From: Pomacea canaliculata
Taxonomy: Eukaryota; Mollusca; Gastropoda; Architaenioglossa; Ampullariidae
Direction: 5' to 3'
DNA: 64,000 bases
Assembly: GCF_003073045.1 (NCBI RefSeq)
Contig: NC_037596.1
Coordinates: 28,122,392-28,186,391 of the forward strand
Made by a program: the position numbers and the translations under genes. Positions within the stretch are counted from its first letter, which is position 1; the number at the start of each line of letters is the position of its first letter. Of the stretch, positions 1-64,000 are shown piece by piece. The notes beneath the pieces were generated by a model. The model did not search any database. It saw nothing but the letters and a program-made list of their open reading frames with translations, and had not been told where the DNA came from.

Positions 1-3000
1 TTGGTACAGACAAAAAGCTAACTGGATCATCAATGTATATAGTGAGTTTCACTAACGAATATTTGTACTAATGTCAATATAAATCTAAAACAATTAGGCA
101 AAATAATTGTAAAATAAAATTCTACACAAATTTGGCAGTGACTATCTGCTGTCTTTAAAATATTTTTCGGAGGTATTAAGGATACTTATTTTTATTTCAT
201 CTCTTATTTTTCTACAAGCTTTTTTCTTTCTAAAGGGATTTTTAAAAGGACATTTTTCGTGTTAAACAGTTTATTATTTTATAATGAATAACATTCTAGT
301 GATATATCTGTGTTGGTTTTTCAAACAGTATTTAAAGCTTTTGGATTTGATATACATTGTTCAAATATAATTCTGTTGCCTTATTAGCCTTTTATAAATT
401 CCCTGCCTACAAAAGTAAATTATTATTATTATGACTTAATTTTATTGTCGACCTTTTTAAACAAATAAACTATGCCTCCTTGTGTTTCAGCTCCTCCATC
501 TATTCCAGTAATTTTTCCACTCGGTGACACAACAGGAAGACCTGTGTATCCTTTCCTGGCGGGTTCGTCGGGTATCTTGAGATGTCAGAGCAATCAGACA
601 GGTCGACCGGAAGCTGCATACACCTGGCCTGTCCCCGCTATAGGCCAGGATTCAGGGAGTAACCTGACTTTCTACAACCTGTCGAGAGAAGATAACGGGA
701 GAACAGTGAAGTGCAGGGCCAGCAACGATTACACAGATAACAGGCGGCCTGTTGATGATGCTACTTTTGTCCTACAGGTCTACTGTGAGTCTCTGGCAAC
801 TTGAAATCCTTACCAATAGTACTGTTTTTTTAATTATCTGGTATACATAAGTGTCCACAAGCAAAGGGTTAGTAGCTTCTATTTAATATCTGCAGTGAAC
901 AATATGTTAACAGGCATCAGAATTTATAATTCAGACCCCATCTCTGATTCCTCTAAGCACAATACATTTTAGTATTTATGTCTTCGTGTCATCTGCATTA
1001 CTTAGAGAATAGATATTGACCATTGACTTTTGACATGAGTATCCCACAAATTTACTTTTCATTTCTGTTATTCATCATTTCACTCTGAAGTCATCGAACT
1101 TAGTTGTAACGGTCTTGCTTCACCGCAAGATGTAGTCTTGTTGATACAGAAAAACGAATCAATTAAATGATACCAAGTCCCCACATAAATTGCAAAGCAA
1201 TTTTTACAAGAGGCACAAGGCCAACGAGCATGACAGATCACAGTCACTTCCCTGTTGGGTCAGAAAGAAAAACCATTATAGCAAGCTTGCCTGGCTTGAT
1301 TATGTGACACGGTAAAAAGTAACCAACACCATATTTCAGGATGTGGCTTGGAAAAAATACAAAATGTTCAGGGTATCGTTTGCAGAGCTTGATAGTCTTC
1401 ACTCATGAAAAGCCAGAGATGCGAGCCTTGTCAGTAAAGCCATCTGTCAAGCTCTCATTTGGGGAGCTTACCAGCTCGGAAGTATTGTTGAGTTAATTCC
1501 ATCAATAAATGAATTGTACACTGGTACATCAGGTCATCACCAATAACGTTTCATGAAAGCCTCATTGCAGCAAGTCTAGAAAGTTTTCCATGTCCTTTCT
1601 CAAACAATTCTCCTCAGTACTTCACAGGTAACATCTACTTCCAGGGCAGTCTGCAAACAGTCGTACTACACTAGTCTGGTAGGGTAGAATTTGATGCATA
1701 GGACATGTGAGGCTAAGAAGCTATCGGGACACCAACAAGGATATTGTGTCATGTCATAAAAATATTTTATTTCGAAATAATTAAAAGCGTAACTAAAAAC
1801 GGAAAGAGAATTTGTAGACATACGGTTTACACTTTATTTGAACAGTGATTTTCCAAGTTTTGTCCAAATTGCATTATGCTAGTATGTGGAAAATTGTGTG
1901 ACACGTGTTGTCTTTACTTTTTTTTAGATGAACCTGTCGTCAGCTTCACACATGTTTTTGATGGCAATGATTGTGTTGAGGTCTCCAGCCTGTCTGATTA
2001 CAAACAGTGTGTTGTTGCCGAAGGAAAGAGGGTTCACATCAACTGTACTGCTGACAGCAACCCATCCCCTTTATCATTCCGGTGGCTGAGTGAAAACAAA
2101 GATGTCTACTCTAACTCAAGCGAGCTGCTAATTACATCTGCTAACCACACCATCCACAACGGTGACTACAACTGTACGGTGGTCACGAAACAAGTGAACA
2201 ACGACAGCCGCTTACCTCTAACATCTTTTGCCATACTGACTGTTATTGTTGGTTGTAAGTAGAAATTAAACTTATCCACTAGTTTTATTACATTATCAAT
2301 ACATAACTATAACATCTTTTTCACATATTATCATTGGCAATGCAATGTTTATGTCTGCAGACTCTCCCAGTGTCCTGAGCTTTACCATAAACAACGTGGA
2401 TGACATGACTGTGAATGTTCAGGAGAAATCTCATGTGGACATGCATTGCGTTTGTAATGGCAGACCTGCTCCGAGCATTCGACTCACTAACTTAACAAAT
2501 CCAGAACAATCTTTAAGCCAAAGTCAACCTACAGACATCTCTGCTAACGAGCAGAGTTCAAAGGTCAACTTCAGCATTGAGCAAGTTCCATGTGAAGCTT
2601 CCGGTGTCTACAGATGTGATGTCAACAACAGTCTTGGACAGGACAGTCAGAGTCGCACGTTACTTGTGTACTGTAAGTTTTATCGGCAGTGCGAGAATTT
2701 ACACTTCTCAAAACAAATTTTAGGGCTACATCTTGAAAAAAAACTTTTACAAAATTAGTAAGTTATTTACAGGAAATCTGCACAACAAAGTATGTTCAAA
2801 ATGGTAATGACATACACACTCTAATCTATGATCATGAAGCAGCATATTCTTCACAGCAAGGCAGTGATGTAAAATTGTCTATAAAATTATGTTTTTAGAA
2901 ACAGTGAATGTTTATGTGATTTTCAAATTTATTAGCGCATATTTTCTATTTTTACTGACAGGTGCTCCCAGAAATGCTGATTTTGATGGAATTCCCCCAT

Positions 3001-5454
3001 CAGTCGTTTCGATAAATAGTAAAGGACATTTCAGTTTTAAATTGACTGCTTACCCCACACCAGTGGTCCAGAAATTAATTTATCTTGGCACTAATGAAAA
3101 TTCTGATGGACATCTCGCGAAGGAAAACAGTATTTCTGTGGAATGTACTGGAAGCTGGTTGGCTCCTGCTACAGTCATCTGCACTATCAGAGTTGTGAAC
3201 ATAACACACCAAGATGAAGGTTTCTACAAAGTTGATTTGAGTAACAGTGAGGGAGAAATGTCTTTCATCTTCTCTGTCAAACGTAAGCGATATTTTACAA
3301 AGAATAATGAACTGTTTGTTGTTCATATGTTTTAGTATTGTCATATAAGGTTGATCCATCGGGTTGATAAATTTATTTTTCCAAAATTTAAAATCATTAT
3401 GGCAACATGCTTACCCTTAAAATGTTTTGGGACTCGTTGACTCGGAAAAAAATAATATAGTTTATTGAACTCTGCCAAGTTAAAAAAATTGTTGCCCACA
3501 GTTCGATTGTTTTCTAGGTTAATGGCATATTTAGAAAAAAGTAAATATTTAAGATATATATATATATCTAACAGATGTATTTTGGATTTAGGTTACAGTT
3601 ATGATTAGCCATCATTAACATAGTAGATGATAACATGGAACTTTAAGATTATTCGAAGGTTTAACGTGTACATGTGCGCACTCGTAAAGATACCGAGTGT
3701 CGTCTGACGACGAAGAAAACTAAAATGAGAATTTTCAGTGTTGATATGTTGACAGAAGCGACGTTAGACGAGGATCAGCCAGCAACAACAACCACAAAGA
3801 CAGACGACAAAGCAATAATCGCCGGACTGGCCGTGGTGTTGGCAGTTGTCGTTGTTGTAATTATCGGTTTTGTCGTCTGGATGTGGCGATGGGGATGGAT
3901 GTTACCATGTGCTAGAGGTTTACAGTTTTATGTTTCTCTGTTTATCTGAATATGTGGCAGGTACAATTCATAGCGTTATTAATGTAAATTAGAATAACTG
4001 GGAATATTTAGCAAAAATCTGATGAATTTTACCTACAGTCTAACCAAGTTCTTTAAGGTGAGTTTGCCTGCGTGCATGGACATGTTTGTGTGTATGTGAG
4101 TCTATATGTGTGAGTTCTAGCCTGTAGGTGTGTGTGACTATCAAATTTATACCAAGAAATACAGGCATGGAGAGGCTTAAAGTCAAATATTGCTCCAGAT
4201 GACTAGAGGCATTTGTTTTGATTCACAGATGGTGTCAACGAAAGACGTCAACATCAAAATCAGACGAAGTAAGCATTTTCTTGCACGGGACGCTGGTGGA
4301 TTTTGATTATTTTGTGCCTAGCACATTCATTTAGCATCTAGACAGAGAGATGTGCCTTACAAACTCAATTACTACTGCGACTGAGACCTTTCTTGGACAT
4401 ATGTGAATAAAATATAAGTATTAAATAAAGAAGGAAACCAGATTAATTCTGTTGTACTGAACATTATTTAATCAAATAACAACACTTTTATTATCATTCT
4501 TTTAGTGGTGACTCATCAGATCAACGCCTATCTTCGGCGATTTCAAAAGCATGCACCTCAAGAGAAGGTAACATCATTAGATGTTGTATAATTTAATCGG
4601 ACATGATGAATGAATTTGATGGCGTCTTCATAATTTATGTTTTTTAATAAACAGTATTGACAGAAGGCATCGTATAAAGATTGGTTACCTACTTTCGTGT
4701 ATATATATATATATTATGCAAGATAATAAAGGAAACAAAATTATATTTTTATTATATGGTCACTGTACAATGTTGTTTAATTAGTCTTTAATACATAAAA
4801 AGTGACATTGATATAGCAAAGATTCTGAATAAGTAAAAACAACAATAACACAGATAAAATTTACAAATAAGTAATACAATTTTTATCTACGTATGAATTA
4901 TATATTTTTGTTTCGTAATACTTTAATCCTTCTCATTGCTTTTTTTAAGAGGTACATTAAAATATTTCAGACAAAACATTCACAACTTTTTCAAAAGACC
5001 TAAGAAAACATATAGAATGAGAAAAGGCAACTGTATTTATGTTTTCAGTCGTAGAACAAGAAACTTCACTGTATGCCGGATTAAAAATGCAGGATGTAGG
5101 CAAGAGGTCCCACTATGAAGAGATCCAGCGATACCAGAATGCACCGGCAATGTCGCCGTACGAAGGTATTTCAATAATTATAATTTCCGTTCACGTTTAC
5201 TTCTTTGATTATTTTCTATTTTAATAATAGGGCACGCACAACTGAGAATTAAACAATCACTTCTTACTAATTACATTCTCGCCAACTCCGTCATTCACGC
5301 TGACATTGAGGGATTTTCTTTTTGCTGGCACAGAATCTGTTCGTCTATCCTTCTCGTCGTTACTCTAGAGAACATGATACTCTTCTTGCCTAAGAACAAG
5401 AACGAAACAGGCAGAGCCCCACGGGACAGGAAAGCCAAAAAAAAAACCACAACA

Positions 5455-5490
<36 letters not shown>

Positions 5491-5793
5491 AATGAACTAA
5501 GAAAGAATAAACAACAGTAATAATGATGAATAAAAACAAATAAAGAAAAAAGAAAGAAGAACCAAATAAGAAGATCATAATAAAGACGAGCAGGGAAGGG
5601 TGTGAAGAAGGACTAGCATGATGGGAAAGGGTGTTAGGAGTAATGTTTAAAGAAGTACACATTTAAATGACAAATAGAACATGTTTCTCATATTGTCTTG
5701 TGTATAATGTTTTGACTAAAATAACAATATTTTGTTTCAGTTGTGAGTGACACATCGGGCACAGAGAAAGAAGAATACAGCTACGTTAACTAA
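1..5793 (+). CDS. Gene A: long Ig-superfamily receptor with tyrosine-motif tail, 3' part
   Basis: Ten exons are visible: 1-41, 491-784, 1928-2254, 2361-2672, 2962-3282, 3756-3917, 4229-4268, 4506-4567, 5049-5165, 5741-5793 (TAA). All have GT-AG borders and matching phases (Ig exons are 1-1), and no stop interrupts the frame. Exon 1 is the end of the Ig domain that is exon 7 of gene C. Then come four Ig-like domains with conserved Cys and D/E-x-G-x-Y-x-C-type motifs and many N-glycosylation sequons. Exon 6 encodes an acidic stalk, a valine-rich membrane helix and the juxtamembrane motif WRWGWMLPC. Four short cytoplasmic exons follow. It is nearly identical to gene C, introns included, so it arose by recent duplication. 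The donor after the membrane exon reads GTTTAC where C has GTAAAC. A cell-surface recognition role is inferred; the ligand is unknown. The 5' half lies outside the window. Confidence 0.85.
1085..1675. repeat. Intronic insertion shared by genes A and C (A copy)
   Basis: The intron between the second and third visible exons of A (785-1927) holds several hundred bases that are also in gene C but absent from the corresponding intron of E, which is only 347 bp long and resumes similarity at the GGTAGGG sequence near 1680. No long reading frame or terminal repeat was recognised, so the class is unknown. It must have arrived before the A/C duplication and after the split from E, or been lost from E. 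Confidence 0.5.
5049..5793 (+). other. Gene A cytoplasmic signalling exons
   Basis: The exon 5049-5165 encodes SLYAGL and SHYEEI; both fit the ITIM consensus, and together they give YxxL-x10-YxxI, close to ITAM spacing. YEEI is the classical Src-family SH2 ligand. A third motif, SPYEGV, forms across the junction to the last exon. The last exon (5741-5793) ends EEYSYVN-stop, giving a C-terminal Y-x-N motif of the Grb2-SH2 type. Binding partners are inferred from motif families, not shown. Confidence 0.75.
5451..5491. repeat. (CAA)n microsatellite in last intron of gene A
   Basis: About twelve CAA/CAACAA units follow an A-rich run. The same intron of gene C (near 36640-36650) lacks the expansion, so it postdates the A/C duplication. 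Confidence 0.9.
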
Positions 5794-9017: not shown

Positions 9018-9928
9018 AAATAGTAACTTCAGGTATACAATGGTACCTTGGCACTTAACCATAATCAGTTCTAGAAGGCTCCTGCTGATCAGTTTGAATG
9101 TCGAACATTTTTTCCATAACAAATATTTGGCAAATGTAAAAGAATTGATTCATTTACCTTTCTGTGTTTTAGTATTGCTGATATCGTCGATTTAACCATA
9201 CTATACCGAATGGCGAATTTACACACACTCATGCTCGAGGCAAGTAGCCCTTGGAGTGGAATAAGTAGTACACGGACATCAGTATAAACACCTGGAAACC
9301 GACTACCCATTATATACTACGTAATTTGTCTTTAGAAGTGGGATGTAGATTAGTCCAGTTAAATTAATAAAGACAAACAGGAGCAAGTCAATAAAATAGA
9401 ATAATAATGTTAGAGTAACTTTAGGCACCTGCTAGAGAGAGACAAGAAGCACTTTTGTAAAAGTGTTTGCATGATCGTTTAGTTTTAATTACAGTTTGAG
9501 GAAAATTGCAACGAAAGAATATTGTAGGCTGTCATGGGCCTGGTGTTTGACCCAGTTCTCTAGTGAATATCAGTGTGTAGTGTGCACAGGAATGTGGACA
9601 GGAGAGTGAGCGGGGTACAGAGACATGTCGGGTAGACGCAAGACTGAAATCATTTTGTTGAGTTTTTTTTTTTATTAGCTGTGATAAGCCAGCCAGTGAG
9701 TGTGTGTATGTGAATAATAGATACTATTTATAAAGATTAACATGTATGAATAGATTATTTATATTTCAAAACCCATGAAATGGTGACAGAATAAAGATAT
9801 TGCAGTTGTGTTCATGCATGGGAGTGGGCTGTGGTGATATTTGTGTTTTTGTTAAGCACACACAGCTAATGCCACTGTGTTTGTAAAGTTAAGAAAAAAC
9901 ACTCGGGTATTGATATGACCGCAAGTAA
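9018..9928. other. Intergenic stretch shared with the C-D interval; no gene seen
   Basis: From 9018 to the start of gene B this sequence is similar to 37818-39012 upstream of gene D, including a TAGTAACTTCAGGTA start and an AGAAGGCTCCTG segment near 9073. It is part of the segmental duplication unit. No coding frame or RNA gene was recognised. Confidence 0.6.
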
Positions 9929-10005
9929 TGAAATGTAGGGCATGGCTGTTTGCCAGTAACAACACATACACCAGCTTACTTCCTTGTTTGACAACACACG
10001 TGTCA
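9929..10005 (+). promoter_or_regulatory. Conserved upstream block of gene B
   Basis: The block begins AAATGTAGGGCATGG, contains TTTGCCAGTAACAACACA, and ends with CTTACTTCCTTG, whose complement holds an AGGAAGT ETS/PU.1-type core. It starts about 220 bp before the B start codon. The same block lies upstream of C, D and E at similar spacing to their first exon, while surrounding sequence differs more. A promoter or enhancer role is inferred from this conservation. Confidence 0.5.
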
Positions 10006-10149
10006 TATCGCTTAAATATTTTGTGCTACTTGATAAGAACAGGTCAAGACCGCGAAACAGTCTCACTTAATGACATAAAAATATTACTATGAATATTTCC
10101 TAATTGTTTTCAAGTATTGCAAAGATTTTCTTTCAATTGGATTAAAGCA

Positions 10150-13100
10150 ATGAAGAGCAGTCTAGTGAAGGTTTGCTTGCTACTCGTCCTAGTGAGATTA
10201 ACCAAAGGTAAGTGGAAGACAAATTTCCGGTGGTTTGTTCATATTAGGAGTCCAAGGTATGTCAATGACACATTTCTGCTGGCTTCTAAAGTTTTTAAAA
10301 ACACCAGTCGTGATTATACATGTACTTACTAAGTGCGTCCAGGGAAAAGGAGATAATCTCCTCTACAAACGCAATTAATGCCGCAGGAGTTTCTTCCCTT
10401 TTCCCCCCGCTTGCTACAAACCTGCTGAAAATGTTTAGGGTCTGAGAAAGTTGTACTGATATCAATGAAAATCATTATTACTGTTTCCCTAAACAAAGAA
10501 GCTCCCCAAGAAAAATATATGATAAATATAAGTATCGAAGCCATCAGAAAACCATAAATCATCACTTACATGTATGAAAGATTCTGTAATTACAACTACA
10601 GCACAAGACAGCTCTAGAGGTAGTGTTGAGCGATGGATGGCAGGTAAAGATTTTTTTCCATGCCCACTGTCACATTCAAATCGCCAACAACTAAGGTCTA
10701 GATTTCAAATATGTCACTCGTCCCCATCTAAGGTACCGTTTCTTCTCCTTATCAAAACCTTTAGGCTTAGCTAGAGCTAGTCATTGAGTGGGGTCTTTCT
10801 CTTGTTTGTGCCGGCTGGTTGATGATAGGTGAAACGATGCTAGTTGTATGAATTTGCTCAATCGTATCCTTGTGTGTGTGTCAGTGCTAGCAGAGCATTT
10901 GGTCAACAAACGACAAGTCATCGGTTTTTTCCTAGCCTGGCCACCTCTAGCAAAATAAAAACGTATGTGTTATTTGATAGAAAAATACATACATTTCTGA
11001 ACTGGTATCGAGGAAATGAAGCATTTATAATGATGCAATAATTATCAAACAATTTTTTATCAGGAAACATGACATCGCAGTGTAGCACTAGCGACAGTTA
11101 TTGGGAAGTGCAAACGGACAAAACGAACAACACCTTTACCTGCACTGGACTGACAGCACAGGACACCATAGAGTGGTATGTCTGGAAAAGCATCACTGAT
11201 TATTTTTACCTTGGCAATTGCAAACCTCTAACAGCAGAACCAACTCAGTTTGTTTGTGACAACTCACAAGGGCAACCCATCTTTATAGCAAGCAGAACTT
11301 CTGCTGACACCGGTCTTATGGTCATCAATCCAGTTGCTGGAGGAGATGCTAGTCTGTATCAAGACTCTTGGCTTCTGTGCCAAGCCACGCGATCAGGGAC
11401 TACTGTGGGGAAAGCGGGCTGTCGCTTCGACTATATACGTAAGACAATTTTACTGATTTTAATTTTATATCATCTTTCATTAGAAATCGTTCTTTTGTAC
11501 TGAATATAGTGCAGCGAGATCGCTTGATTAGGGTGAGCTTATCTCTGACTATAGGTTATCCTTATATATATCTCTAATGCATGTTTCTTTGTGTGTGTGT
11601 AAAATAGTGATTGACAAATGTCCGTAAAAATATCTGCATGATATCCTAGAATTTAGTTACTTATCTAATTCTGCATGTCTGACAGATTTTAGCTCTTTCT
11701 TGATGCCAAAACCCTACATTATCATGCTCCCTCTTTAGATAAAAATTGTTTTATTTTACTTATGTCGCATGTCGCCAGATGCTAGTGAAGACACATCATG
11801 CACAGTTCAGTTTCGTAACGACACGTGGTCTGTGTACGGCCAGTGTAACATACAGAAAGCCTATTCCGTGCAGAACAGGTATCGGTGTGAATGGATTCAG
11901 ACTAAAGAGGTAAATACTGATAAGTGTTTATGTCATAAAGAAAACTGTAAAGGTAATTAACTATTAAGCATAACTTTTAAGTTGGGTCGTGTATAACTTT
12001 ACATTGTTGCAGTTATCACATTACTGTAATGACTTTATAATACACACTTTTCTCAAAATTTGTAACAGATGATTATGTTGGTTACATATATATCAAATTT
12101 TGCTACTTATTAGTTATATACTAAAACGAAAATCTTGTTCACCAAGATACAATTCTTAATCCGATATACTTTTTCCTATCTCTATATTAATCTCTTTGAA
12201 GTTTTAAGATTTATTACAGTTTTTTCCCCGTTGTCCATAACCTCAAAATTGCATAAAATGTTTGTATTCTTACCATTTTGATAGTTTATGTTTCAAAAGC
12301 ATATTTTGTGTAAATCTGTTTCCCTGTAAGCAGTACCTGTGTACATGTATACATATATATGTGTGTGCGCGCAAGATTTATCGGAAGATAAATCAAATTA
12401 AGTTTTTAAAGGAAATATTTACAGTTATCTTAACTACTGTCAAAGAATTAGACGCTCAATTTAGTTGATAACTTGAACATTTTTTTCATGTTTATTAGGT
12501 AACAAGGGAAGAGAAACTTTTGGCCAATGTCTCAATGTCGACTGTTTCTTCTGTCGGAATCTATGTTAATGGCTCTTGCAACTTCACCAGCTACCTCCCG
12601 CCTAATGGTCAGTACACTTACTACGTGACTGTTGTTCCAGGAGAAGTCCAGGTGACTGCAAGTTTCATTGGAAGTAATGTAATCCGTAAGTCGTTCTTAC
12701 TGTCACAAGAGCCGTTTGAACTTGCGGGATATTAGTTCTGCATCTTCAGATATTTTCAGATATTTACGGAACCCATCTTTCTTCCGGTCATGCAATTTTG
12801 ACTTCAGAAAGCAAGTGTTTCAAAGTAATGTGACATTGTATACCTTAACCCCTTGTTTTAAACTATTATGCGGTTGATTGTTTTGCTCGAATGTTACTTA
12901 TCTGAGCCATTGTCGAAAGTGGATGGAAAAAAAATTAAGAATTGAGTTTTAATACAAATGTTTACTGATATCTATCATATCAAAACAAAACAATAAAATA
13001 TAAATAAAAACACAAAACTGCTAAGATGGTTTTAAGATACATGCCTGAAATATTAAAAATAAATATAAAGATAGACTATTTCTTTTGGGCTTCTAAAGTA

Positions 13101-16100
13101 ATTGAAAAAAGCGTATATTATCATTTGAATTTGTACAGATTTACAGAAGCGTATTACAATTATTCAAAGTTAGTTGTATGAATAGGCGTGAGTTTTTGTC
13201 TTTTTTTCCTTCCTTTGTGAGCAAGTGAGTAGGTAAGCTTTTGCTTTAAAAAGTTAAATATCTTTTTGATATTGTCAAGAAAGGTCGCCCCTCCGGCACA
13301 CCTTACCACAACTGTCCACAGTATGTACAAGAAGGTGGCGCAATCAACTGCAAATGTTTTATAAGTGACCTGGGCAGCCCACCTGGTAAACTACAATGGA
13401 ATACTACTCTTTCGTCAGAACTACGTCTTCCAAACGTACAACAATTTGATTACGGGACGTACACCTGTCAGCTACTTTGGAACAACACGGTTGTCCAATC
13501 TGTGGAGTATGTCTTAAAAAAGGGATGTAAGTAGACGTTGTCATTATCTTTATGTCCACCTCTGTATTTATTTGTGATTTTTTCTCTCCCTTTCTTTTTT
13601 GAATTAATTGTGAATGTCACTGTTTCCAACAGACTCTGCAAAAGTGCCGATCTTCAATATAAATAGTTTTGACAGCAAGACAGTTAATGTTGATGAGAAA
13701 TCTCATGTGGAGATGAGATGCTATTCTGATGGAAAGCCCACTCCGAGCAGTCGACTGATAAATGCAGCAGAACCTTCTCAGTCTCTCAATCACAGTCAGC
13801 CTGCAGATGACGATGTTGACGAGGAAAGGTCAGGGGAGGTCAGCCTCAGTATACATCAAGTACAGTGTCAGGTGTCAGGAGTGTACAGGTGTGAGGTCAA
13901 CAACAGCATCGGACAGGATAGTCAGAGTCGTACATTACTGGTGTCCTGTAAGTGTTTGAAGCGTAAAATAATAGAAACAAAAACTTACAGGGCTTTTAAC
14001 ATATTTAAATAAACAAAATCTAACTTTCAAGGGGTTTAACGAATATTAGCTAAAAAAACCCATGGTATGAAAATAAACTCACATACAATATTAAGAGCTA
14101 TAAAATGTGTAAAAGAGTGGTGTTGGTAGTTGTGAGAAAAATAACTGTTTTTCCTAGTTAAAAACCATATCATATTTTCTTTTGTGTTGTGCCTTTAGAA
14201 ATGGAAATTGTTACTACAAACGATTTATGATGTAAGCTACAAAATTAATTAGTTTAATTTGTTGTTTTATTCAATATAAATATCTCTACAATGTAAAGTT
14301 TTAATGTCAGTACGTATTATAACAGTCAGACTTCTTGTAATTTTTTTAAAGTAAAATTACATCCTTACAATATAATATTACAGGTGCCCCCAGGAGAACC
14401 AATATCGATGGGAATCCTCCAACAGTCAATGTAAGAAATGGTTCAGGAGTGCTAACAGTTAACATGACGGCTTACCCTACACCACAGATTAAAACATCAG
14501 GCTATCTTGGCACAAACAACAGTTCTGATGGACTCCAAGTAAAAGAAAACAGTGTCTATGCTTCCTGTTCCACAACTTTGCTTGCACCAGCTTCAGTCAC
14601 CTGCAATGTCATAGTCATCAACATGACACACAATGACGAGGGTTTCTACAAAATCGTATTCAGCAACAGCTTAGGAGACTTGCCTTTCACATTCTTTGTC
14701 AAAGGTAATTGTAGCCAGGGGAACAATTTACAAACCCACAAAGGCTCTTTAATAAAAAAAACAAACCTAGTCCTAAATGTTAAATCAAATGCATGACCTT
14801 ATTTAAAGTTAACTGTTTATTATTCTACTTCTTATACACTAATCAGTATGAATTTGTATTTGTCTTGAACTAGTTTAAAATGAAGTATTTAAATATATTT
14901 CATTTTTCGTTTAAGAATCTTATCTTTTCTGTATTATGCTAAAGATTATGTTTGTTCTAATGAAATGGAAAATGGGAAAAATGAAAAAATGAGCTTCAGA
15001 GATTTTCATTGACCTATACAGTGTCAGAGAACGACCAGCAGGCCTGGGCGACCACAAAGACAGACGAGAACATCGCTGGAATCGTCGTGTTGGCCGTGAT
15101 GTTGTCAGTTGTCGTTGTGTTGATTCTTGTGACCGTCATCTGGGTGTGGCGACGTGGATGGACTTTACCGTGTGCTGGTAATGATATACTTTTTTTGTAC
15201 AACTTTTCACAACTGTTGTGTTTTCTTCTTTTTTCTGTGTGCATGTGTGTGTGCTTTCTTTTAGATGTAGTGTTCATGTTCATGTTTATATCTGCATAGA
15301 TAGTTACAGTTAAGAAAGACATGACTGTTATGTCAACAAAATGATATATGTAAATAAACATGATTTAATATACTATTTTTGAATTGCAGATAGAGCTAAT
15401 CAAAGAAACACGCAGCAAAACCAAAGAAGGTAAGTCGTGGTAATATGTACACAGTTTGACAAAATACAGCTTGAAAGACTATGGCAAAACTGTTTACTAT
15501 TGGATAATATTTATACTTTCTCTCGTTATTCGGTTGTAAATCTTTTTAGTTTTTGAGAATAAAAGTTTGGTATACTTGCAGCGGCGTTATATCAGAACAA
15601 TCCTTGACTCCTGTGACCACAGAAACTTCAGGCACAACAGATGGTAAGTCCCTCAAATTATCTCTATACTATCTCAAAATATAGACAGAGACGCAGTTTA
15701 ATGTATTCTGATATATGCGAAGGTGTGACTATGTTCAAGAGTTAATTTAAGTGTCATCAAAGAACAATTTACCTCCTGACTGCATGAGCTGATTGATTAG
15801 TTTATTTAAATGTTGTTTTTTTTTTTACCTAGCGATGACTTCGCGCTTTTAGTGTAAAGGGACATAATAGAAGTGGATAAATAAATGTTCCCCTGATAAA
15901 CTCTAGACTTCCCTCTAATAAATGCAGGTGCTGAGGAAAGATATCATTTACAAGTGAAGTTTCAAAAATTTTCAGAATTCTTTATAAAGAACAATAACTC
16001 TAATATATGTTTAAAGATCTACTCTCTCTTTAAAAATGCTTCAGCAAAACATCGGCATCCTACTTAGTAAAGAAAACAGAAATATTTGTCATTAATTGTT

Positions 16101-50500: not shown

Positions 50501-53500
50501 CATGGGAGATGGAGGACTTCACTCATTGCCAAGGAACATTAAACTGTAATATGTTTTATTTTCCTGCACGCTTTCTGTGTTCCATCGACGCTTTTTCCAC
50601 GACGGATTTTGTTTTGTCGACGCATTCTTATTTAGTGATTGTTAATGCAAAAAATCTTATAAAGATATAAAAACAGAGTATTACATCTTACATATTACTT
50701 ACTCCAAAACATGTGTGTTCTAAAATGACTCTCAGAAAAGCAGTCATCTGAGAATCGCAGAGTTAGCATAATTATGAATAACATAATTTGTAGTGCATTT
50801 TATTGTGTGGAAGCGAACGAAATGCCTTCTGATTAAAGACTAATAACAAAACGACATCTCACCTTACAACGAAGAAACAACAATTGCAGCAAACATTTGA
50901 CATTGAGGCAATAGAAGTGCATGTTCAAAGATGATTAAATGAAGGGAGAGAAGAGCGATATCAAATACCGATATCAAACAGTATGATAATACTTGCAGGA
51001 TGAAACAGACTATAGAATTATCTTATAAATTCTTTAAAGGTAGTTTAAAATGATATTTTATTAAAGTTTATTTCGAACAAAGGTGTTTGAGATTAGGGTG
51101 AAAATCGGGGGACATCGTGTACCGCAAAAGAGACAAACAAGCAATTATTTGTTGATTTTGTTTCCCAGGAAATCTGACATCAGTGTGTGGTACCAGTGAC
51201 AGTTACTGGGAGGTGCACAGTAATAAACAAAATAACACCTTCACCTGCACGGGGCTGTCAGCACAAACACATACCAGTGGGATCGCTGGGAGCCTGTCAC
51301 AGGTGTTAGCACCTATCTTGGTGAATGTCCGCCGTTAGCAGCAGACGGAAGTCAGTCTGTGTGTAAAAGACCAGTCAGCCCCACTTTTATACCAAGCAGA
51401 ATGTCTGATGACACAGGTGTGATGCTTATTAATCCTGTAATAAATCCAGTATATACTCCCTTATACGATAAAGGTTTACTGCGCTGCACGGCTGTTCGTC
51501 AGAATTTACCTGCTGGAACCGCGGGCTGCCGCCTGGATTACATAGGTAAGGCACTTCATATGTTTGATCTAAACTTTAAATCTAAAAGAGATATTGCAGG
51601 CAACATAAAGCTAGCTTTCTCTAATAAACTACTCAAGAGTAATAAACCATTGGTTTGTAAAATCACAACCAAGAAGAATGAAGAAGAAATGGCGACTCAC
51701 AAGAGAAAGAAAAACACATCTAAGACTATTTCTGACTTCGATCTTTGTCTGTGATAACATTAACAACAATTAACAAATATTCTCTTTTTCTGATTAAGTG
51801 TATGACTTTCTAAACACATTATTTCTTCTTTTTTTTTACAGATGCAGGTGCAAATATATCGTGTACAGTTCAGTTCAGAAACTGGAGTGTGTTTGGTCAG
51901 TGTAGCACAGAAAGAGCTTACTCAGCTCAGAGCAGATACCGGTGTGAATGGATCCAGACTAAAGAGGTGATTTTTGATGCATATATATGGTAATAATAGA
52001 GTTCTTATGAAAATATGTTCCATAAAAACAAGTTATTTAACTGATTCGATAAAAATAGTAGCTTGCTCAAAGGAATCGCCGCTATACAAAATTTGAATCT
52101 TCTCGATGAAATGGCTTTGTTGTACACAATCATTTCATTTATCATCCACAAAATAGTGTTCATAGTTCCAATAACGGATATTCATCTTCTTTTCGTAGAC
52201 ATACATTTTGTTGGAACTAAGAGCAACTGTGTACTGCAAAAGAGGCTAAAATACACTTCCTTAATATCTACCCTGACATGCATTTCTTGTAAAAGTTTGT
52301 AAGAAACATTTCTCGTTGTTTTCAGTCAACAAGAGAAGAGATCCTAGTCGCCAACACATCAATGACAGTTGTGCCTAAGGTCAGTGGATGGAGTAACATG
52401 ACCAGTTACCTGCCACCTGTCGGTCAGTACACTTACCGTGTGACTCTTGTTCCCGGGGAAGTTACAGTCAATCCAAGTTTCATTGGAAGTAACACAATAC
52501 GTAAGTGTTTATATCGAAAGAAGTTCGTGTAAAAGTTTCAAGCTTGACCTGCCATTGACTGAGGCGTACTAGATATAAGAGATCCGTCTTTTGGGTGTGG
52601 CTTTGCTTTAAAAAAATCTATAACATCAGCACAACCCATTATTACACCTCTGTAATCCTTATTTGCCTTTCTTTTATTTATATATATATATTGTCTGTGA
52701 CAGATACACAATTAGTTTCACACATAAACAAAAGTAGAAACTTTTATTTGTTCTTTACATTGATTTCTTTGACAGGTCTCCCCTCCAGTAAACCTTCCCA
52801 CAACTGTCCACAATACATACCAGAAGGTATTAACTTCAGCTGCACGTGTACTGTGAGTGACCTGGGCAGTCCTCCCGGTGAACTACAGTGGAATACAACG
52901 GGATCAGCAGAACTGCGGGTTCTAGCTGTTCATGCTGTGGACACTGGGACACACACCTGTCAGCTCCTGTGGAACAATACAGTCGTGCAGTCCGTGGAGT
53001 ATACCTTGACTGTGGCATGTGAGCTGAGATTTTCTCTTATTCTCCGCCGTTTCTTTGGCACGAAGAAATAATTTACAATCTTCTATGTGTGCACACGCGC
53101 TTGTATAAAATCGTCTGGCTGCTTCCACATATTTAATTTATTTGAGATACCAATATTATAAATGTAATAAACTACCTGGAAGGCGTCAAAAGTTAGTGCG
53201 CTTGCTCAAGAACAAACTGACAAATCCTGAATTTGAAAAATGTTTGTCCACCATTTTCTACCCTTTTATCAAGGAAGGTATTAAGTCTACACTGCATAAC
53301 TTTTTATAGTAATTATATAAAATGTGCGATGTTAGTATTTTCAGACAAGCGTTTGCTTTGATGACTTTAGATATTTTAAATATTGCTCACTTCACACTAT
53401 TGCTACAAGCAGGTAATCAAAGTTTATATCTGATTCATACTGTCCATGTTAAATTATTGATGTCCAAAGTGATAATGTTGTGTAGTTTTATAGCTGTTGT

Positions 53501-56500
53501 ATCACTCAATGAATTAGATCCTAGTGCTTGGTTAATATTATTAACAGATATTTTAACATAAATGTTAAATTTTATGAATGTTCAGATAAGTTTTTAATTA
53601 TACAGACAATTATTTAACAGCTATTAACATTTTATATAAGCATTATCCTTAAGCTAATTAAATTGGTAATTCTTTTGTAAACATAATGAGTCCTTTTGTG
53701 ATTATGATTGCGAGAATGATTAACAAATAAAATGATAGTTCTGGTACAATTTACATTTCCAGATGGACCAAAAACTGTGGCAGCTGTTGTGCTCAACCCC
53801 CAGCCATTTTGATACAAATGGATCACAGGATATAGCCCTCAACTGCTTCGTCTCTGGATCAAATCCACCCTCCACTATCACCTGGATGAGATCAGACAAC
53901 AAGACCATTCTGTGCAACACTCAACTGTGTATCATGACCCCCAGGCCTCCTGATGACGATGGTCTCAAGATTGAATGTCTGGCCACAAACCCTGTCACCA
54001 ACAGAACCAACTCGAGCAGTGTGACACTCGCACTCAACTGTGAGTATTCAGTATCTTCAATCGTACTACATCAAATTTTTTACACATTACGATTTCATAA
54101 CTCATCAAAAAAGCACAACTCCATATATTTTTTTAAAAATAACTATTAACGTTAATTTATATAACACTTTACACTACCATCAAAGGCAGGCTCAAAGTAG
54201 CTGAGAGTAAGTACGATGTTTTTTTATGGAACTTCAACTGTCAATCCTTGGTGGAGTTGCTTAAGTTTTGCAGACAGAAATATGATTCCGTAATGATAAC
54301 TTTTGTTAGAGCATCATGCTAACGGTCACAAACTAGTTTCAGAGAGATGCAAAATGTAAACCTATCAGACCTGAGTGTACTCTGTTTTTTTTTCTCTGTT
54401 ATTATCTTGCTACTAACAACTTCTTCTCTATAATAACTTATTAATGAATTTTGGAATTAGCAGCCCGTTAAACTAGTTAGACATACATATTAACAGAAAT
54501 AAACTGAATGAATCTGATGTTGTGTGTTATGTAGGGTCTGTTAAAGAATATTTTTTAGGTAAAAGCAACTAATAATTTTGAAAGCACCATTATCGTCAAC
54601 AGTGCTTTGATATTTGGTTTGTTTTCTGTAGACCCCCCTACATCACCGCCAGTGATCACAGGAAACCCGTCTCCATGAGGACCAGCCTGTGTATGAGGGA
54701 GACAGCTTCACTCTAACATGTACAGTACGAGGCGGTAAACCTTCTAACGCAACTGTCATAACGTTTACCTGCCCCAACAGGACCGACACACCTGACAGCA
54801 GCTTGAACTCCTCCGGTGTCACCAGCAGCTTGACCTTTGATCCCGTTACTTCTTATAACCATGGCAACTGCAGCTGTACCGCCGCGTGGAAAAGTTATGA
54901 CTGGTATACACAGAAATCCTGGTGGAAGATACATGTTTATAGTAAGTTGCAGAATACCGAAATAATTTCTGACTGCAAATTTACGATCATTTTGTAAGAA
55001 TTTCCTTTTTTTTTTTTTTGATGTATTCTGCTCTGCTTAATTTTTTTTATTTATTACACAAAAATCGCTCATCATACAGTCACGAAAGTAAAACTAAGGC
55101 AGTAAATTTCTCCTGTTTTTTTGAGGAATGAATATGAGATTGGATGGAATTTTTGTGTCAAAAGCTGGATAAGCCCTGCCATCTCGACACTTAATGAGAA
55201 ATACCAAAGTTTTAAGCTTTAGTAACTCATTACTTAAAAATATTTGTAAAACAGCTCAATCTTTTCGCAAGTAGTACAGAAGACACTGAAATACTTTCTT
55301 TTCCTTAAACGTCTCTTTCTTTGCCGTTTTTCTGAAAGGGTTTCTTGTAAAGTGTTTTCTTTTAATCAAACTTTTCATCTTAGACATTTTAGTGTTGAAA
55401 AATAACAAATGTGTATCTATTTATCTTAGTTGGTTTTTCTTTTAAAAAAAGTAATTTAAAGCTCGCACATTTATTGTAACAGTGTTCGAGTATAATTACT
55501 ATCTATAATCAAGCATCATATCAGTTTTCCATCAGCAAAAATTCAAACTATTTTATTATAATGATATTTTATATTCTACTTTTTTTTCAAAAATGACCAT
55601 TGTCATCTATGTTCCAGCCTCTCCATCTATTCCAGTAATTTTCCCTGTCAGTGACACACCAGGAACACCTGTGTATCCTTTCATGGCGGGTACCTCAGGT
55701 AGACTTGGGTGTAGAAGCAATCAGACAGGTCGACCGGAAGCCACCTACAGCTGGCCTGTTCCCGCTACAGGTCAGGCTTCAGGTAGTAACCTGACTTTCT
55801 ACAACCTGTCGAGAGAAGATAACGGGAGAACAGTGAAGTGCAGGGCCAGCAACGATTACACAGAGAACAAGCGGCCTGTTGATGATGCTACTCTTGTCCT
55901 ACAGGTCTACTGTGAGTCTTTCGTATATTTCGAAGTTTAAAAGAGGTACAAGTTCTTTCTTTTATTGACTTTATTGACTTTAAATGAAGGAAACACTGGT
56001 AGGGTAAAATTTGGATCTCGGACATGTGAGGCTAAGAACCTTTTGAAACATGAACATAGATATTATGTCTTTCAGTAAAACATATTTTATTTCGAAGTAA
56101 TTTGAACCGAATTCGAAAATTGAAAGAGAGTGTGTATACATACATGATATACTTCGCTTTATACATCTCTGAACAGTAATTTTCCCATTTTTGGCTAAAT
56201 CATATTTATGCTAATATGTGGCAAATTGTGTGACACTTGTTCTCTTTATTTTGATTAGATGAGCCTGTCATCAGCTTCACACGTTTTTCCGATGGAAATG
56301 ATTGTGTCGAGGTCTCCAGTCTGTCTCATTACAAACAGTGTGTTGTTGCCGAAGGAAAAAGGATTCACATCAACTGTACTGCTGACAGCAACCCATCCCC
56401 TTTATCATTCCTGTGGCTGAGTCAAAACAAAGATGTCTACTCTAACTCAAGCGAGCTGCTAATCACATCTGCTGACCACACCATCCATAACGGTGACTAC

Positions 56501-58450
56501 AACTGTACAGTGGTCACGAAACAAGTGAGCACCGACAGCCGGCTTCCTCTAACATCTTTTGCCATACTGACTGTTATTGTTGGTTGTAAGTAGAAATTAA
56601 ACTTATCCACTAATATTATTACATTATCGATACATAAATATAACATCTTTTTCACATAGTATCATCGGCAATGCAATGTTTATGTCTGCAGACTCTCCCA
56701 GTGTCCTGGACTTTAACATAAACAACGTGGATGACATGACTGTGAATGTTCAGGATAAATCTCGTGTGGACATGCAGTGCCTTTGTAATGGTAGACCTGC
56801 TCCAACCATTCGACTAATTAACGTTTCAAATCCAGAACAACTTTTAAGCCAAAGTCAACCTACAGACATCTTTGCTAACGAGCAGAGTTCAAAGGTCAAC
56901 TTCAGCATTGAGCAAGTTCCGTGTGAAGCTTCCGGAGTCTACAGATGTGATGTCAACAACAGCCTTGGACAGGACAGTAGGAGTCGAACGCTGCTTGTGT
57001 ATTGTAAGCACTTGTTAATAATGTTTCTCTTTTTATATCAAAGACATTGGTGTTCTCAGAATATTATACAGTTTCATTAACATTGTAAGCGTCTTTACTA
57101 TTGGTAAATGTGTCTCATGAATTGACTGCATTGGAAATGAATAATTAAATGTTTAATAGATGCAGACCTTACACATGTTCTATACTTATTAGACGATATG
57201 AAATTTTCTTTTCAAACATTAGTAGCAGAGAGGATTTAATAGAACTGATTGTTGAAGCTAGGGTGTTTGTACTGGAGCAAAAAGACATATTTTCAAACTA
57301 TTGATAAATATTTACATAAATGACAACGTATGATTTGCAGGTGCTCCCAGAGGAATATTTGGTGATCAAGATGTAAATATAACTAGTGGGGAGCTTACTG
57401 TTAGAATGACTGCATACCCCACGCCGATGGTCAAGAAAATAACATTTCTTGGAAACAACAAAAGTTTAGATGGAGAACCAGTGAAGGAAAATACTTTCAA
57501 TGTGCAATGTTCTGCCAGCTCGTTAGCCCCAGCTGCGGTCACCTGCAATATTAAAATGATGATGATAACAAACAACAACGAGGGATTTTACAGAATTATT
57601 TTCAGCAACAGTTTTGGAGATCTCTCTTTCACCTTTTTTGTCAAAGGTAATTGCATTTATTTGTGAGACACGCTAAAAGTCTCACACACTCCCACTCTCT
57701 CACATGTCAGCTTTATATTATGAGCAGAAATATAGTGATAGGTCATTTCGATTCAAACGAGAAAATTATATTGGAAAGGGGTTATTTTTTTAAATAGAGA
57801 TGCTCTCACGCACAACTGAATAACATTTTTCCCAAACACTGACATTATTTGTTATTAACAATTTATATTGGAATTTGTAATCCATCAACAAAAATCGTTA
57901 ATGAAAAATTGTATTTTTGTTTTGTCAAACGATCATCTTGCTGGCTATAAGTTAACCTTTATAAAATGACCCCTAAATAAGGTAATAATTTTTATTAGCC
58001 TTTTAATAAAATTTTCAGATAGTAAAGACCAAGACAAGGATCAGGAAAAAGGACCTAACATTCCAGCAATAGTTGGTGGAAGTTTTGCTGTTTTCATAAT
58101 AGTTGTCGGGATTATTGTTACCGCATTTGTAGTGCAGCGTTACAGAAGTAAGTCTCCGATGAACACTAATTTGCATAAGAAAATAAAAAGTGAACAGCAA
58201 GTCTGTCTTGCAACGAAAGAAATTTACCTTATTTAAAGATATGTCAAAAAAGGTATTGCATTCAACATTACAAAAAAAGAAGAGTAAATTTATAAAATTT
58301 AAAATAAACATTTTGGTTTAGAAAAAGAAAACAATTATCCTTCTTTTCATTTATTTATAAATGCATCAGTCTTTACAAGATTTATAACAATCTGCACAAT
58401 TTTATAAATGCTGCCAGACATAAACATGTTTAAAGTTTTATCTTTTACAG

Positions 58451-59747
58451 GAAAGGGGGGACAACAGAGATCAAGGCAAGTAAATAGTTTATATAATTAT
58501 TTTCTGAGCATGACACATTTTGCAAAAACGCTATTTCTATACTCTGAATATGATTTAAGAATTCTAGTTCATCCAGTATGCTTAAACCTTTTAAGAACAG
58601 GCAAAACACACTAAGTTGAATTAAGCTTTAAATAAGCATGCCTCTAATTATGACAGAAAGTGAGACTAAGTCATACTTTGTTATTATTCATACAGAAGTA
58701 ATGATCCTCCAAACATAAATCCACAGAAGACTGCTGATGGTAAGTAACAACTTTTAAATTGTTAGTTCTTAATGCTTTCTTTGTATGTAATTCAATTTAT
58801 TACCAAAACTCTGTCAAGATGTCTTACCAAGTTTGATTTCTTCTAGAAAACGTTGACTGAAGAAAGTCACTGCCTTGATGATATTTCAGAAGTAAAAGAA
58901 ACGGTGACTATTATATAATTCTATTCTTTGTTGTAGAAGGAGGGACAGCTCTTTATGAGGGACTACAACTGGACAATGTCGGGGAAAGATCCCAGTATGA
59001 AGAACTACAGCGATACCAGAACACATCGGCAATATCGCCTCCGAAAAGTATTGAAAATCATCATCATCAATCATCATCATCCATCATCCGTCATCAATCA
59101 TCCGTCATCAATCATCCATCATCATCATCATCCGTCATCCGTCATTAATCATCCGTCATCAATCATCATCATCAATCATCATCACCAAGATTAAAATTTT
59201 AAACTAAGAATTGTAGCGACTTCCATAGTTTCGTTTCTTCATGGTGCTGAGTAGTGGTTCTTGAGTCTAACAACTATAGCTATAGTATTGTGTTGCCAAC
59301 ATGTAGCATCTCCGCTGTATGAAGCTTTACAAGTGCAGGATGTAGGGAAGAGGTCAGACTATGAGGAGCTACAGCGATACACGAACACCTCAGCAATATC
59401 ACCATAGACAGGTATTATTAATGCTACAATTTTGATGTATTTAAATAAATAAACATTGTTGTGATTAACAATTTTATTCTATGAAAGTAGCATATTGACC
59501 ATTCATTTCAATAAATATAAACAGTTGGGCTTTATCATGAACTATGGAAATACGCATAACTTGTAAATACCTTAAAGTGGCTAAGACAGCAAAATGACCA
59601 AATATATAGCTAACGAATGTAACTAAATGAACAAGGGGTGTTTCTGTGTCATTTTTGTTAAAATTATGTTTGAATATAATTTTTGTTTCAGTTATAAGCA
59701 ACAGTATGCGAACAACCACAGATTAACACCTATGTCAACTAAGACTG
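58451..59747 (+). other. Gene E tail: duplicated tyrosine cassette and decayed last exon
   Basis: Exon 58937-59047 encodes ALYEGL and SQYEEL; exon 59307-59411 encodes PLYEAL and SDYEEL. Both have the YxxL-x10-YxxL spacing, so this tail has twice the usual number. The second exon stops at TAG 59405, where A and C have TAC (Tyr). The former last exon (from 59692) would read to TAA in the inherited frame, but INTYVN-stop can still be read in the next frame, so the family's C-terminal Y-x-N is present but unusable. AATAAA lies at 59829-59834. Confidence 0.65.
59055..59195. repeat. ATC/ATCATCCGTC minisatellite in the tail intron of gene E
   Basis: CATCATCAATCATCATC-type units with interspersed CCGTCATCAATCAT repeats begin just after the donor at 59048 and run about 140 bp between the two duplicated tail exons. 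Confidence 0.85.
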
Positions 59748-61582: not shown

Positions 61583-63997
61583 ATGGGGCCACTCTCTACA
61601 ATGATGAAGATATTGGTGGAGTGCTGCTTCTTTCTCGCAATACTGAGTTCAAGTCAAGGTAAGTCTATAAATATTTATTAATAATTAACAATAAATAATT
61701 ATTTCACAAAACACGTTTGTTGTACACAAATACAGGGTACAACCTTCCGTAGCTACTGAACCGATCAAAAGGTGAATTTTTCATATTGATGTGTGTAAAG
61801 AGTTTGTCTCGCGATTGCTCTGTGTTGGATAATGCGAGTACAGCGAGTCGTCTGTGCGTTTGTGAGTGAGTATTCATGTGTTGATGTGTGGGTTAGCTAC
61901 TCTTGAATGTCCTGAATGTAAAAGATTTATAAAACATCATGTTTATGTGATATGACAAAGGTAGGAGTAATCCTCTAGCCTTTTCATGTCATATAACCCT
62001 AAAATTATTTCCTTTACGGCCTGCCTTTAACCAGGCACATAGACCTCGGTGGTCGGGGTGTATGCCTTCTAGGTCAGATGTAGCGAGATAAGAGACTGAC
62101 GCAGGTACACAGGTACACTCACTCTCGCACATAGCCTTTCACACGTACACACATGCACGCACACATCTACACGTACGCTCACACGCGCGCACGCAGTGGG
62201 GCAGTTGGGTTGAGCACCCGGCGAATTTGATTTCTGCCATCACTGGTCAAGGGTGGGTTACAACAGCGAATATGGTTTGCTCCAACGCTGCAGTGGGGTA
62301 GAGGTAGTGGACTGTTTTCTGGATATTCGAGGGGTAGGGCAGTAAGCAACTAAGTTTTTGTTTCGCTCCCTTCACCCGCCGGGTGCTTCTGTACCCTGTA
62401 CCCCGGTGACCTCAAGTGGCGCTCACTCAGGGCTGTGATACCATTCCCTTAGTTGGCTGGTTTATTTAGTAGAAAAGTACTTCCACCTTAATTTTGCACT
62501 ATAAGGGGAGAGGGAGGGGTAGACATGGAGTACCTGGGGCCCGGTCCCACGGGCTGGTCGGCCTGCTCTGAACCCGACTGGTCTGATGATGTTGACTTTT
62601 TTTTTTACTATTACCTTCATGATCACTTTGCAATAATATAATTCGTGTGAGTATTATTCCCATTTTATTTATCCCTTCAGTCTACAGTGCATGAATTTTT
62701 TTTCTGATTTCTTACCTTTTGTCGCTTAGCTCATAGTCACATAAAAATAAAATTGCAATATCTTTTCAGCAAACATAACAGCTCTGTGCGATTCGGCGGA
62801 CATGTACTGGGAGCTACGAGAAGACAAACAGGTTAATATGTTTACCTGTACTGGACTGGCAGCACAAGATACAGTGCGGTGGGTCCTGCAGGATCCAACT
62901 TTTCGGTACATTATACTGGGTTCCTGCCCTCCTCGCTTGATGGGAGGTGAAGTTGTCTGTGAGTCACAATTCTCCTATGCACCACCAAGCCGAATTTCTG
63001 ATAATACAAGTGTGATAACAATTAACACATCTGGAATATCAACATCAATACTGGATGGAAAAGGACGCCTGATCTGCTCAGTTCCGAATGTACCCGGTGC
63101 TGAAGGAAGCTGTCGCATGGATTACATATGTAAGATGAAGATTTCAATGGTTATAACTTTTTTAACGAATTCAACTTCGTATACGTTTCAGGAAAACAAT
63201 TGTCTCACAAGTCCGATTGTAACCTACTTTAAACACAGAGCAAATAAATTTATATAAAAGGTAAAATCGCTTTCACAACTTTCATTCCTTCTGACTGTTT
63301 TTCCAGATCCAGGTGAGAATATATCCTGCTCAGTTCAAGTAAACAATACCCAGACTGTGTTCGGCCAGTGTACCGTTGGCAAAATCCGCTCATCACAGAA
63401 CAGATACAGGTGTGAGTGGATCCAAACCAGAGAGGTAATAATTTAAGTGTGGTAAACAGAAAAAATAATGATTACCTTACCTGGGCTGGTCAAGTAAATA
63501 AAAATACTGAAAAATACGATCTACAAAATAAATTACTTTAATTACACCATGTAAAATAAAATGTAGATATGCATGAACTCTACCAAGACATTGTATCATT
63601 AGTTTATTTTGTAGGTATCACTTAGTTTCAAATGTGCTGTTAGAATGATTTTTTTTGTTTATTTAAAAAGTGTTGTGATAAAAGCAGACGATACTTTCAT
63701 GTACATTATTAGACTCTATAAAAATTGCTTGTAATATGCCAAAACAATCTGCCTTCAAAGCGATCATATTAATACATAGCTCCATCCATTAAAAAAATAA
63801 TGGTTTGCAGTCGTCATCTGAAGACATCCTCATCGCGAACACATCGATGACAGTCGTTCCTTCTCTCAGGAGTTACTTCAGTGGAAGGTGTAACTTCACC
63901 AGTCACCTGCCATCAGATGGTCTGTACACCTACCGTGTGACTATTGTTCCCGGAGAAGTGACTGTCAATGCAACTTTCATAGGAAGTAGCGAAATTT
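61583..63997 (+). CDS. Gene F: Ig-superfamily receptor, 5' part (4 exons, open)
   Basis: Exons: 61583-61658, 62770-63129, 63307-63434, 63811-63997; the last GT is at 63998, so the gene continues beyond the window. The signal peptide is MMKILVECCFFLAILSSSQ from ATG 61601; ATG 61583 is in frame six codons earlier. Exon 2 is the divergent N-terminal Ig-like domain, with CTGLAAQDTVRW, GSCPPR and LICSVPN. Exons 3-4 give the split second domain, with YRCEWIQ and GEVTVNATF. All phases match B and C and no stop interrupts. Exon 4 is 187 bp, the length found in B and D, which with the alternation of types suggests a short gene; that is a prediction. Confidence 0.82.
62190..62310 (+). repeat. SINE-like dispersed repeat in intron 1 of gene F
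   Basis: GTGGGGCAGTTGGGTTGAGC resembles a tRNA A-box region, but no clear B box follows. It lies in a GC-richer part of the intron after CA-rich sequence (62100-62180). Weak call. Confidence 0.25.
62468..62522. repeat. Dispersed short repeat with purine-rich end, copy 2
   Basis: AGTAGAAAAGTACTTCCACC and the following ATTTTGCACTATAAGGGGAG match the repeat at 21411-21490. Confidence 0.45.
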
Positions 63998-64000
63998 GTA

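Follow-up and report, generated by a model that had tools for sequence, protein, structure and literature searches.

How genes in a receptor array come to be built from parts with separate histories is the question raised by a 64,000-nucleotide stretch of the apple snail Pomacea canaliculata genome (C7:28,122,392-28,186,391; hereafter the window), which carries a tandem array of genes predicted to encode membrane receptors with immunoglobulin (Ig) domains and tyrosine motifs in their tails. We analysed one assembly (440,159,624 bases in 24 contigs), in which the DNA of the window is of animal type, with introns. Exon models were based on homology and splice signals, and exons from open reading frames were assigned to fixed-order families by all-against-all comparison (blastp and blastn families). 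Six relatives lie on the plus strand in the order A (long), B (short), C (long), D (short), E (long) and the start of F, as the original prediction had it, and their kinship is far beyond chance. Their common plan comprises a signal exon, D1, D2 (split into D2a and D2b), D3, then D4-D9 or D8-D9, a membrane exon, a tail exon and a short last exon. The long type has nine domain units, mostly Ig, and the short type, which lacks D4-D7, has five; both are followed by one membrane helix. The array is real and extends past the window, with X, Y and Z on its left, G and H on its right, and five further genes (s1-s5) up to about 1 Mb away.

The strongest result of the analysis is mosaicism. As judged from sequence comparison, the D1-D2 cassette, the N-terminal half, the middle domains and the signalling end of these genes have had separate histories. 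We compared silent divergence among exons with Fisher tests, whose exon groupings were chosen after the per-exon values had been seen, and we compared tree topologies by paired support values and by the approximately unbiased (AU) test, for which p values of rejected topologies are given. Between B and D, silent divergence reaches 1.36, 2.33 and 1.10 in D1, D2a and D2b, against 0.12-0.47 in the other exons (p=1.9e-14, with the last exon outside the test). In the corresponding segment of B the non-exon DNA does not align with D, both flanks align at 74-78%, and the introns within the cassette compare at the level of shuffled controls. The D1-D2 cassette of D is foreign, grouping with s1, s2 and s3 some 1 Mb away (support 90/94), while D3, D8, D9 and the membrane exon together place B with D at 100/100. 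A grouping of B, D and Z was rejected for the cassette (p=2.7e-5) and weakly rejected for D9 and the tail (p=0.038), where X falls inside it. Selection alone as the source of the B/D difference in D1-D2 was ruled out, because silent sites and introns differ as well.

A comparable break was found in E, which leaves its likeness to C just after D8. Silent divergence between the two is 0.15-0.19 across D4-D8 against 0.64 in D9 (p=2e-6), and D9 and the tail of E group with s5 at C7:27.30 Mb (support 100/98), a placement with A and C being rejected at p=1e-50. Silent rates alone do not mark the 3' end of E as nearer to s5, as D9 and the membrane exon compared with D1-D3 gave p=0.46 for this pair. 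The s1-s2 pair shows its own break, since 4 of 61 fourfold sites differ in D1-D2a against 42 of 89 in D2b-D5 (p=3e-8). Such breaks fall in or beside introns whose phase keeps the frames joined, and they recur in several genes.

Two further genes, Y (long type; C7:28096559-28108000) and s4 (C7:27208502-27219292), are about 88% identical up to the membrane exon and about 80% beyond it, and s4 seems to have a degenerate version of the A/C/Y tail. These whole-gene duplicates stand 0.9 Mb apart, suggesting that copies travel between two sub-clusters. Compared with A and C, both have synonymous divergence (dS) of mostly about 1 or more in D1-D5, with introns that do not align, and a continuous alignment at 84-87% from D7 to the 3' end; the exon test of Y against A left out D7 and D8 (dS 0.63 and 0.71) and pooled D6 with the 3' group. 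We withdrew the idea that Y is an s4-type head on an A/C-type signalling end, Y and s4 being alike along the whole gene. For D9 and the tail, the AU test rejected Y with s4 (p=0.006) and also Y with A and C (p=0.006, s4 falling inside that clade); the former rejection was set aside because we attribute it to the decay of s4. The alignments do show that Y and s4 differ from A and C in D1-D5, whereas from D7 onwards the two pairs agree.

To place these genes in the genome, D1 of C was searched against the whole assembly, and all 37 candidates were scored. It gave 21 matches, all on C7. Seventeen of them represent 15 exons (good copies) at 27.07-28.22 Mb, within 1.15 Mb, and the other four are weaker (33-38% identity), at 2.6-2.8 and 30.8 Mb. 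The family is thus clustered, as had been proposed, and the 15 clustered copies exclude for this genome the alternative of a single-copy gene with no clustering. We examined the flanks at 28.08-28.234 Mb, as well as part of the s1-s5 region at 27.07-27.31 Mb. To the left lie X (short, no D1 found), Y, Z (short, with a complete frame) and the 5' half of A. To the right come F, which has no body, G (short), and H on the minus strand, for which D1-D3 were found. These flanks yielded no signal exon for X, Y or G, small exon size being a possible reason. In the short-long register the order reads X Y, Z A, B C, D E. The genes s1-s5 are not all of the long or short plan, as s5 is without D4-D5 and s3 has only half of D7 between D3 and D8, and there is apparent damage in s4 (stops in D9 and tail pieces) and in s3 (a stop in the D7 piece). 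A genome search with Pfam Ig_2, in which 150 of 681 candidate places were scored, put a large share of the 150 on C7 (for example at 20.83, 22.34 and 28.48-30.16 Mb), suggesting that related Ig genes may outnumber the D1 family and that other Ig clusters may neighbour the array. No relatives were found in collections of viral contigs and genome contigs.

The array seems to have grown in layers. Blocks [Z A] and [B C] (9018..37615, plus strand) are 92% identical over 19.7 kb aligned, to which the intergenic stretch at window positions 25061-26651 adds 1.6 kb at 94%. The recent tandem unit is therefore short-then-long, of about 21 kb, copied from [Z A] to [B C]. A two-gene unit had been predicted, and such a unit exists, but its register and size differ from the long-then-short unit of about 30 kb first proposed, and the B-C copy carries 8.0 kb extra. 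This extra segment (17035..25151) is present in [B C] only, encloses a minus-strand gene, and is flanked by a 91-bp direct repeat (17035-17125 and 25061-25151, 83/91 identical) that is single in [Z A] and was possibly left behind when the segment was gained or lost. A single duplication of A-B into C-D was ruled out, as A and C are far closer than B and D, which the [Z A] to [B C] block explains. The likeness of Z and A to D and E (79% over 10.2 kb, in pieces) represents an older layer. The enclosed minus-strand gene (17991-22745) is broken up or multi-exon, with a P-loop piece (GPPGTGKT; Schlafen group-3 helicase, E 4e-4; AAA_16, 1.2e-4) and a NERD-like piece (E 0.0015), all below curated cut-offs. 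Between A and B, positions 6532-8763 hold retrotransposon pieces (zf-RVT, E 5.5e-10; weak Baculo_FP_2nd), and the stretch that holds them is absent from the C-D interval.

The positions of the genes and of the exchanged segments are collected in the table. The N-terminal exons of A lie at window positions -4663 to 41, so that the gene starts 4.7 kb left of the window; with them A forms one open frame of 1052 amino acids. For C, a D4 start at 30163 (the 1070-residue model) was replaced by 30208 on comparison with A and E. Domain exons are of phase 1-1 in the B and C models, the exception being the phase-0 junction of D2a and D2b. No stop or frameshift was found in A, B, C or Z. In D, frameshifts occur in D1, D3 and D9, and one cysteine codon of D3 is also gone; the signal, D2, D8, membrane, tail and last exons remain readable, the last ending in PTYVN. 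E is frameshifted in four exons (signal, D1, D4 and D5), its second tail exon contains a stop, and its last exon is broken. Both genes are probably pseudogenes, judging from these disruptions, which the first account of the window did not include. That account also had all six genes sharing exon phases, the N-terminal domain pair and the tail plan. The phases are borne out in the B and C models and four tail tyrosines in A-D; the N-terminus of A and the tail of F lie outside the window, and E departs from the plan with two tail exons and a membrane exon of its own type (46% identity over 27 residues to that of C). For F, tblastn at E 1e-3 detected no D3-to-tail exon before D1 of the next gene (window position 69006), and a laxer search gave one 32-residue piece at 19-22% identity and no convincing D3. 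F thus seems to consist of signal, D1 and D2 exons by themselves, upstream of G; no signal exon turned up for G, and F conceivably serves it as an alternative start. Elsewhere, an ATC-rich tandem repeat (59056-59184) lies directly behind the first tail exon of E, and an inverted repeat at 47128-48917 (175 columns at 89%; arms 47128-47300 and 48746-48917, plus a shorter inner pair) is possibly a fold-back mobile element. A tRNA search of the window and Rfam at gathering thresholds both gave no matches.

Table. Genes of the array and exchanged segments, in window positions.
Feature	Kind	Span	Strand	Exons	Remark
Gene A	long, 3' part	1..5793	+	D5 end; D6 491-784; D7 1928-2254; D8 2361-2672; D9 2962-3282; membrane 3756-3917; tail 5049-5165; last 5741-5793	
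Gene B	short, complete	10150..16629	+	signal 10150-10207; D1 11064-11438; D2a 11779-11909; D2b 12499-12685; D3 13284-13526; D8 13633-13947; D9 14384-14704; membrane 15028-15177; tail 16105-16215; last 16583-16629	645 amino acids; C-terminus PTYMN
Segment of B	D1-D2 with flanking introns	10430..13170	+		
Gene C	long, complete	26341..36967	+	signal 26341-26410; D1 27484-27858; D2a 28175-28299; D2b 28586-28757; D3 29289-29531; D4 30208-30483; D5 30879-31190; D6 31645-31950; D7 33094-33420; D8 33527-33838; D9 34128-34448; membrane 34918-35076; tail 36240-36356; last 36915-36967	1055 amino acids; C-terminus EEYSYVN
Gene D	short, probable pseudogene	39013..45527	+	D1 40123-40486; D3 42107-42347; D9 43236-43556	
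Counterpart in D	D1-D2 cassette	39283..41991	+		
Gene E	long, probable pseudogene	49491..59742	+	signal 49491-49549; D1 51169-51545; D4 53763-54040; D5 54632-54941; membrane 58019-58147; tail 58937-59047 and 59307-59411	last exon disrupted
3' end of E	D9, membrane and tail exons	57009..59742	+		
Gene F	start	61601..63998	+	signal 61601-61658; D1 62770-63129; D2a 63307-63434; D2b 63811-63998	

To gain insight into what these genes may encode, we searched B and C against Pfam; for C, this run and the motif and sequon counts below used the 1070-residue model. C matched Ig_3 (6.6e-36, in 6 stretches) and I-set (1.1e-29), and B matched I-set (5.1e-12, its best stretch being D8), so that both carry Ig-fold domains by profile and belong in this sense to the Ig superfamily. 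An AlphaFold model of D9 had a mean pLDDT (predicted local distance difference test) of 79 and resembled I-set domains (best E 2e-4), with titin-, NCAM- and DIP-like fold matches. There are 31 N-glycosylation sequons in C and 16 in B. The tail of B contains LYDAL, SHYEGI, SSYEDV and a terminal YMN, and that of C contains SLYAGL, SHYEEI, SPYEVV and a terminal YVN, which we take to be immunoreceptor tyrosine-based inhibitory motifs (ITIMs), an activation motif (ITAM), a Src homology 2 (SH2) site for Src (YEEI) and Grb2 sites (YxN). Strict ITIMs, [ISVL]xYxx[ILV], number two in B and three in C, and each tail has one ITAM-like pair, YxxL-x(10)-YxxI; a spacing of 10 is inside the allowed 6-12 and wider than the classical 6-8. 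These counts were equalled in 0.05-0.85% of shuffled tails (0.0005-0.0085). With such motifs after a single membrane helix, B and C fit the sequence definition of ITIM/ITAM-bearing receptors, and the tyrosine motifs expected from the first inspection are indeed present. The four tail tyrosines are preserved in A, B, C, D, Y and Z, and the matched piece in X and G stops before the third. By eye, the membrane helices of B and C contain no positively charged residue.

Receptors of comparable kinds have already been published. In the phylum, the nearest is CgIgIT2 of the oyster Crassostrea gigas, which a review section describes as having five extracellular Ig domains, a membrane helix and an ITAM and as recognising microbes and lipopolysaccharide, and which a cited title calls an inhibitory receptor. 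By description, the short genes B and Z may resemble it, with five domain units, a membrane helix and both motifs, though D1 and D2 count here as domain units rather than as confirmed Ig domains; the long genes have nine units. The same section presents CgIgIT2 as an individual receptor and mentions no tandem array, long-short alternation or cassette exchange. The nearest invertebrate array that we met is FcoR of Botryllus schlosseri, which comprises multigene type I receptors from one locus with V-type (variable-type) and C2 Ig domains and ITIM, hemITAM or core tyrosine motifs. Unlike the snail genes, FcoR combines a sushi domain with two C2 Ig domains, is paired with a fester gene, and belongs to a tunicate in which polymorphism and allorecognition have been studied; in B and C, no sushi domain was matched in Pfam at E up to 1. 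The teleost NITR genes likewise form clusters of Ig receptors, most of which have ITIMs; their V domains are extremely divergent and evolve by birth and death. They have one or two Ig domains against five or nine units here, and their activating class has a positively charged membrane residue of the kind not seen in B or C. In the dog, CEACAM28 is reported to have gained the N domain of CEACAM1 by gene conversion, an exchange of leader and N-domain exons that pairs a binding domain with a different tail; that tract is recent and near-identical, in a vertebrate, whereas the snail array shows several older breaks, in several genes, with ectodomains of nine or five units. Biomphalaria GRC/PTC1 and PTC2 are also snail clusters of single-pass membrane genes, yet PTC2 genes span 166-530 codons with no known domains and no Ig array, unlike B and C with 645 and 1055 amino acids and Ig domains. 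By analogy, the snail array would work most like the paired receptor clusters of dog CEACAM and NITR. We claim membership in no named family, because FcoR has a sushi domain and CgIgIT2 is known from a review description. Our literature search found no array with this architecture and, apart from single oyster receptors, no large ITIM/ITAM receptor clusters in molluscs; in view of CgIgIT2, the statement that no named molluscan system matches is partly wrong.

Taken as a whole, the sequence evidence makes it fairly probable that the locus is a tandem birth-and-death array of type I, ITIM/ITAM-bearing Ig receptors that are exchanged by parts and signal in haemocytes or other cells. The sequence shows long and short ectodomains built on one framework, phase-1 domain exons that can be swapped with the frame kept, block duplication, and decayed copies; the process behind the exchange would be gene conversion or unequal crossing-over. 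A ligand-binding role would fall to the outer D1 and D2, which are V-like and would bind a ligand on a pathogen, a parasite or another cell, whereupon a Src-family kinase would phosphorylate the tail. Phosphotyrosines would then recruit SH2 proteins, with a phosphatase at the ITIM-like sites, a Syk-type kinase at the YxxL pair and a Grb2-type adaptor at the terminal YxN, setting the response of haemocytes or another cell type, and exchange would alter which ligand drives which signal. We infer the immune setting from the architecture. Several observations weigh against this interpretation. When scanned by itself, D1 (from B, C and F) has no match to any Ig family of Pfam, and its AlphaFold model, made for three sequences, is weak (mean pLDDT 61). 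The 50 Protein Data Bank (PDB) neighbours shown for it are nearly all antibody, nanobody or T-cell receptor V domains, at E 0.002-0.02 with none below 0.001, so that the model points weakly to a V-like fold. A PDB sequence search with D1 gave a best E of 0.033. The tail motifs are short, and their signalling meaning is suggested by analogy. E aligns with s5 over the whole gene and E with s5 is not rejected for the ectodomain exons (p=0.20), so the basic type of E may be that of s5, with its middle of C type, and not a C-type head joined to an s5 tail. The ratio of nonsynonymous to synonymous divergence (dN/dS) stays under 1 in almost every exon comparison between intact genes; exceptions are D8 between A and C (0.038 vs 0.03) and those short signal or last exons that show no silent change. 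No gene-wide positive selection is seen in these exon ratios, and it was set aside on that ground; dN of D1 is highest or near-highest in most pairs, which is compatible with diversification or with weak constraint.

Other explanations account for part of these observations. Lineage-specific adhesion or nervous-system recognition molecules, non-immune and with tyrosine-based sorting or signalling motifs, would also suit the Ig_3 and I-set matches and the fold matches of D9, and YxxL motifs may function in endocytosis. Adhesion families, though, tend to be conserved and to have few members, while here there are 15 D1 copies, partly recent, mosaic and decayed, and ITIM and ITAM patterns occur together; we regard this explanation as unlikely. 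If the receptors instead discriminate self or mate rather than microbes, parallels exist in the Botryllus fuhc locus, which is described as holding 53 loci of V-type Ig receptors with ITIM/hemITAM tails. Hydractinia alr2 likewise exchanges its domain 1 with nearby pseudogenes. Colonial fusion is not known in apple snails, however, and allorecognition or gamete recognition seems a rather improbable role. That the mosaics and frameshifts are assembly artefacts, from misjoined or under-polished PacBio contigs or from haplotypes placed in tandem, we consider very improbable. The candidate assembly is PacBio-based, with alternative heterozygous contigs filtered, and the broken copies D and E adjoin, but there is no N in 144 kb, the breaks lie in or next to introns of several genes, and a divergence of 7-8% would be large for haplotypes. 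The frames of A, B, C and Z are also intact, for which a rough Poisson count at the D/E disruption rate gives a chance of about 3e-6, which makes a local assembly fault an improbable, though possible, cause of the D and E disruptions.

Under the favoured interpretation of an array of signalling receptors exchanged by parts, the locus provides an example, mapped down to its breakpoints, of the kind of domain exchange known from paired receptors of mammals. We tentatively suggest, as an idea still open to considerable doubt, that it forms a gastropod germline recognition complex that builds receptors combinatorially, the introns (phase-1, with one of phase 0) serving as joints at which long and short neighbours and decaying donors swap binding cassettes, middle domains and signalling ends over about 1 Mb. 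If this is true, a given binding head could come to sit on various signalling ends. The array makes it testable in snails whether their receptor repertoire is polymorphic and varies from one individual to the next, and by what means specificity may arise in a germline array without somatic rearrangement.

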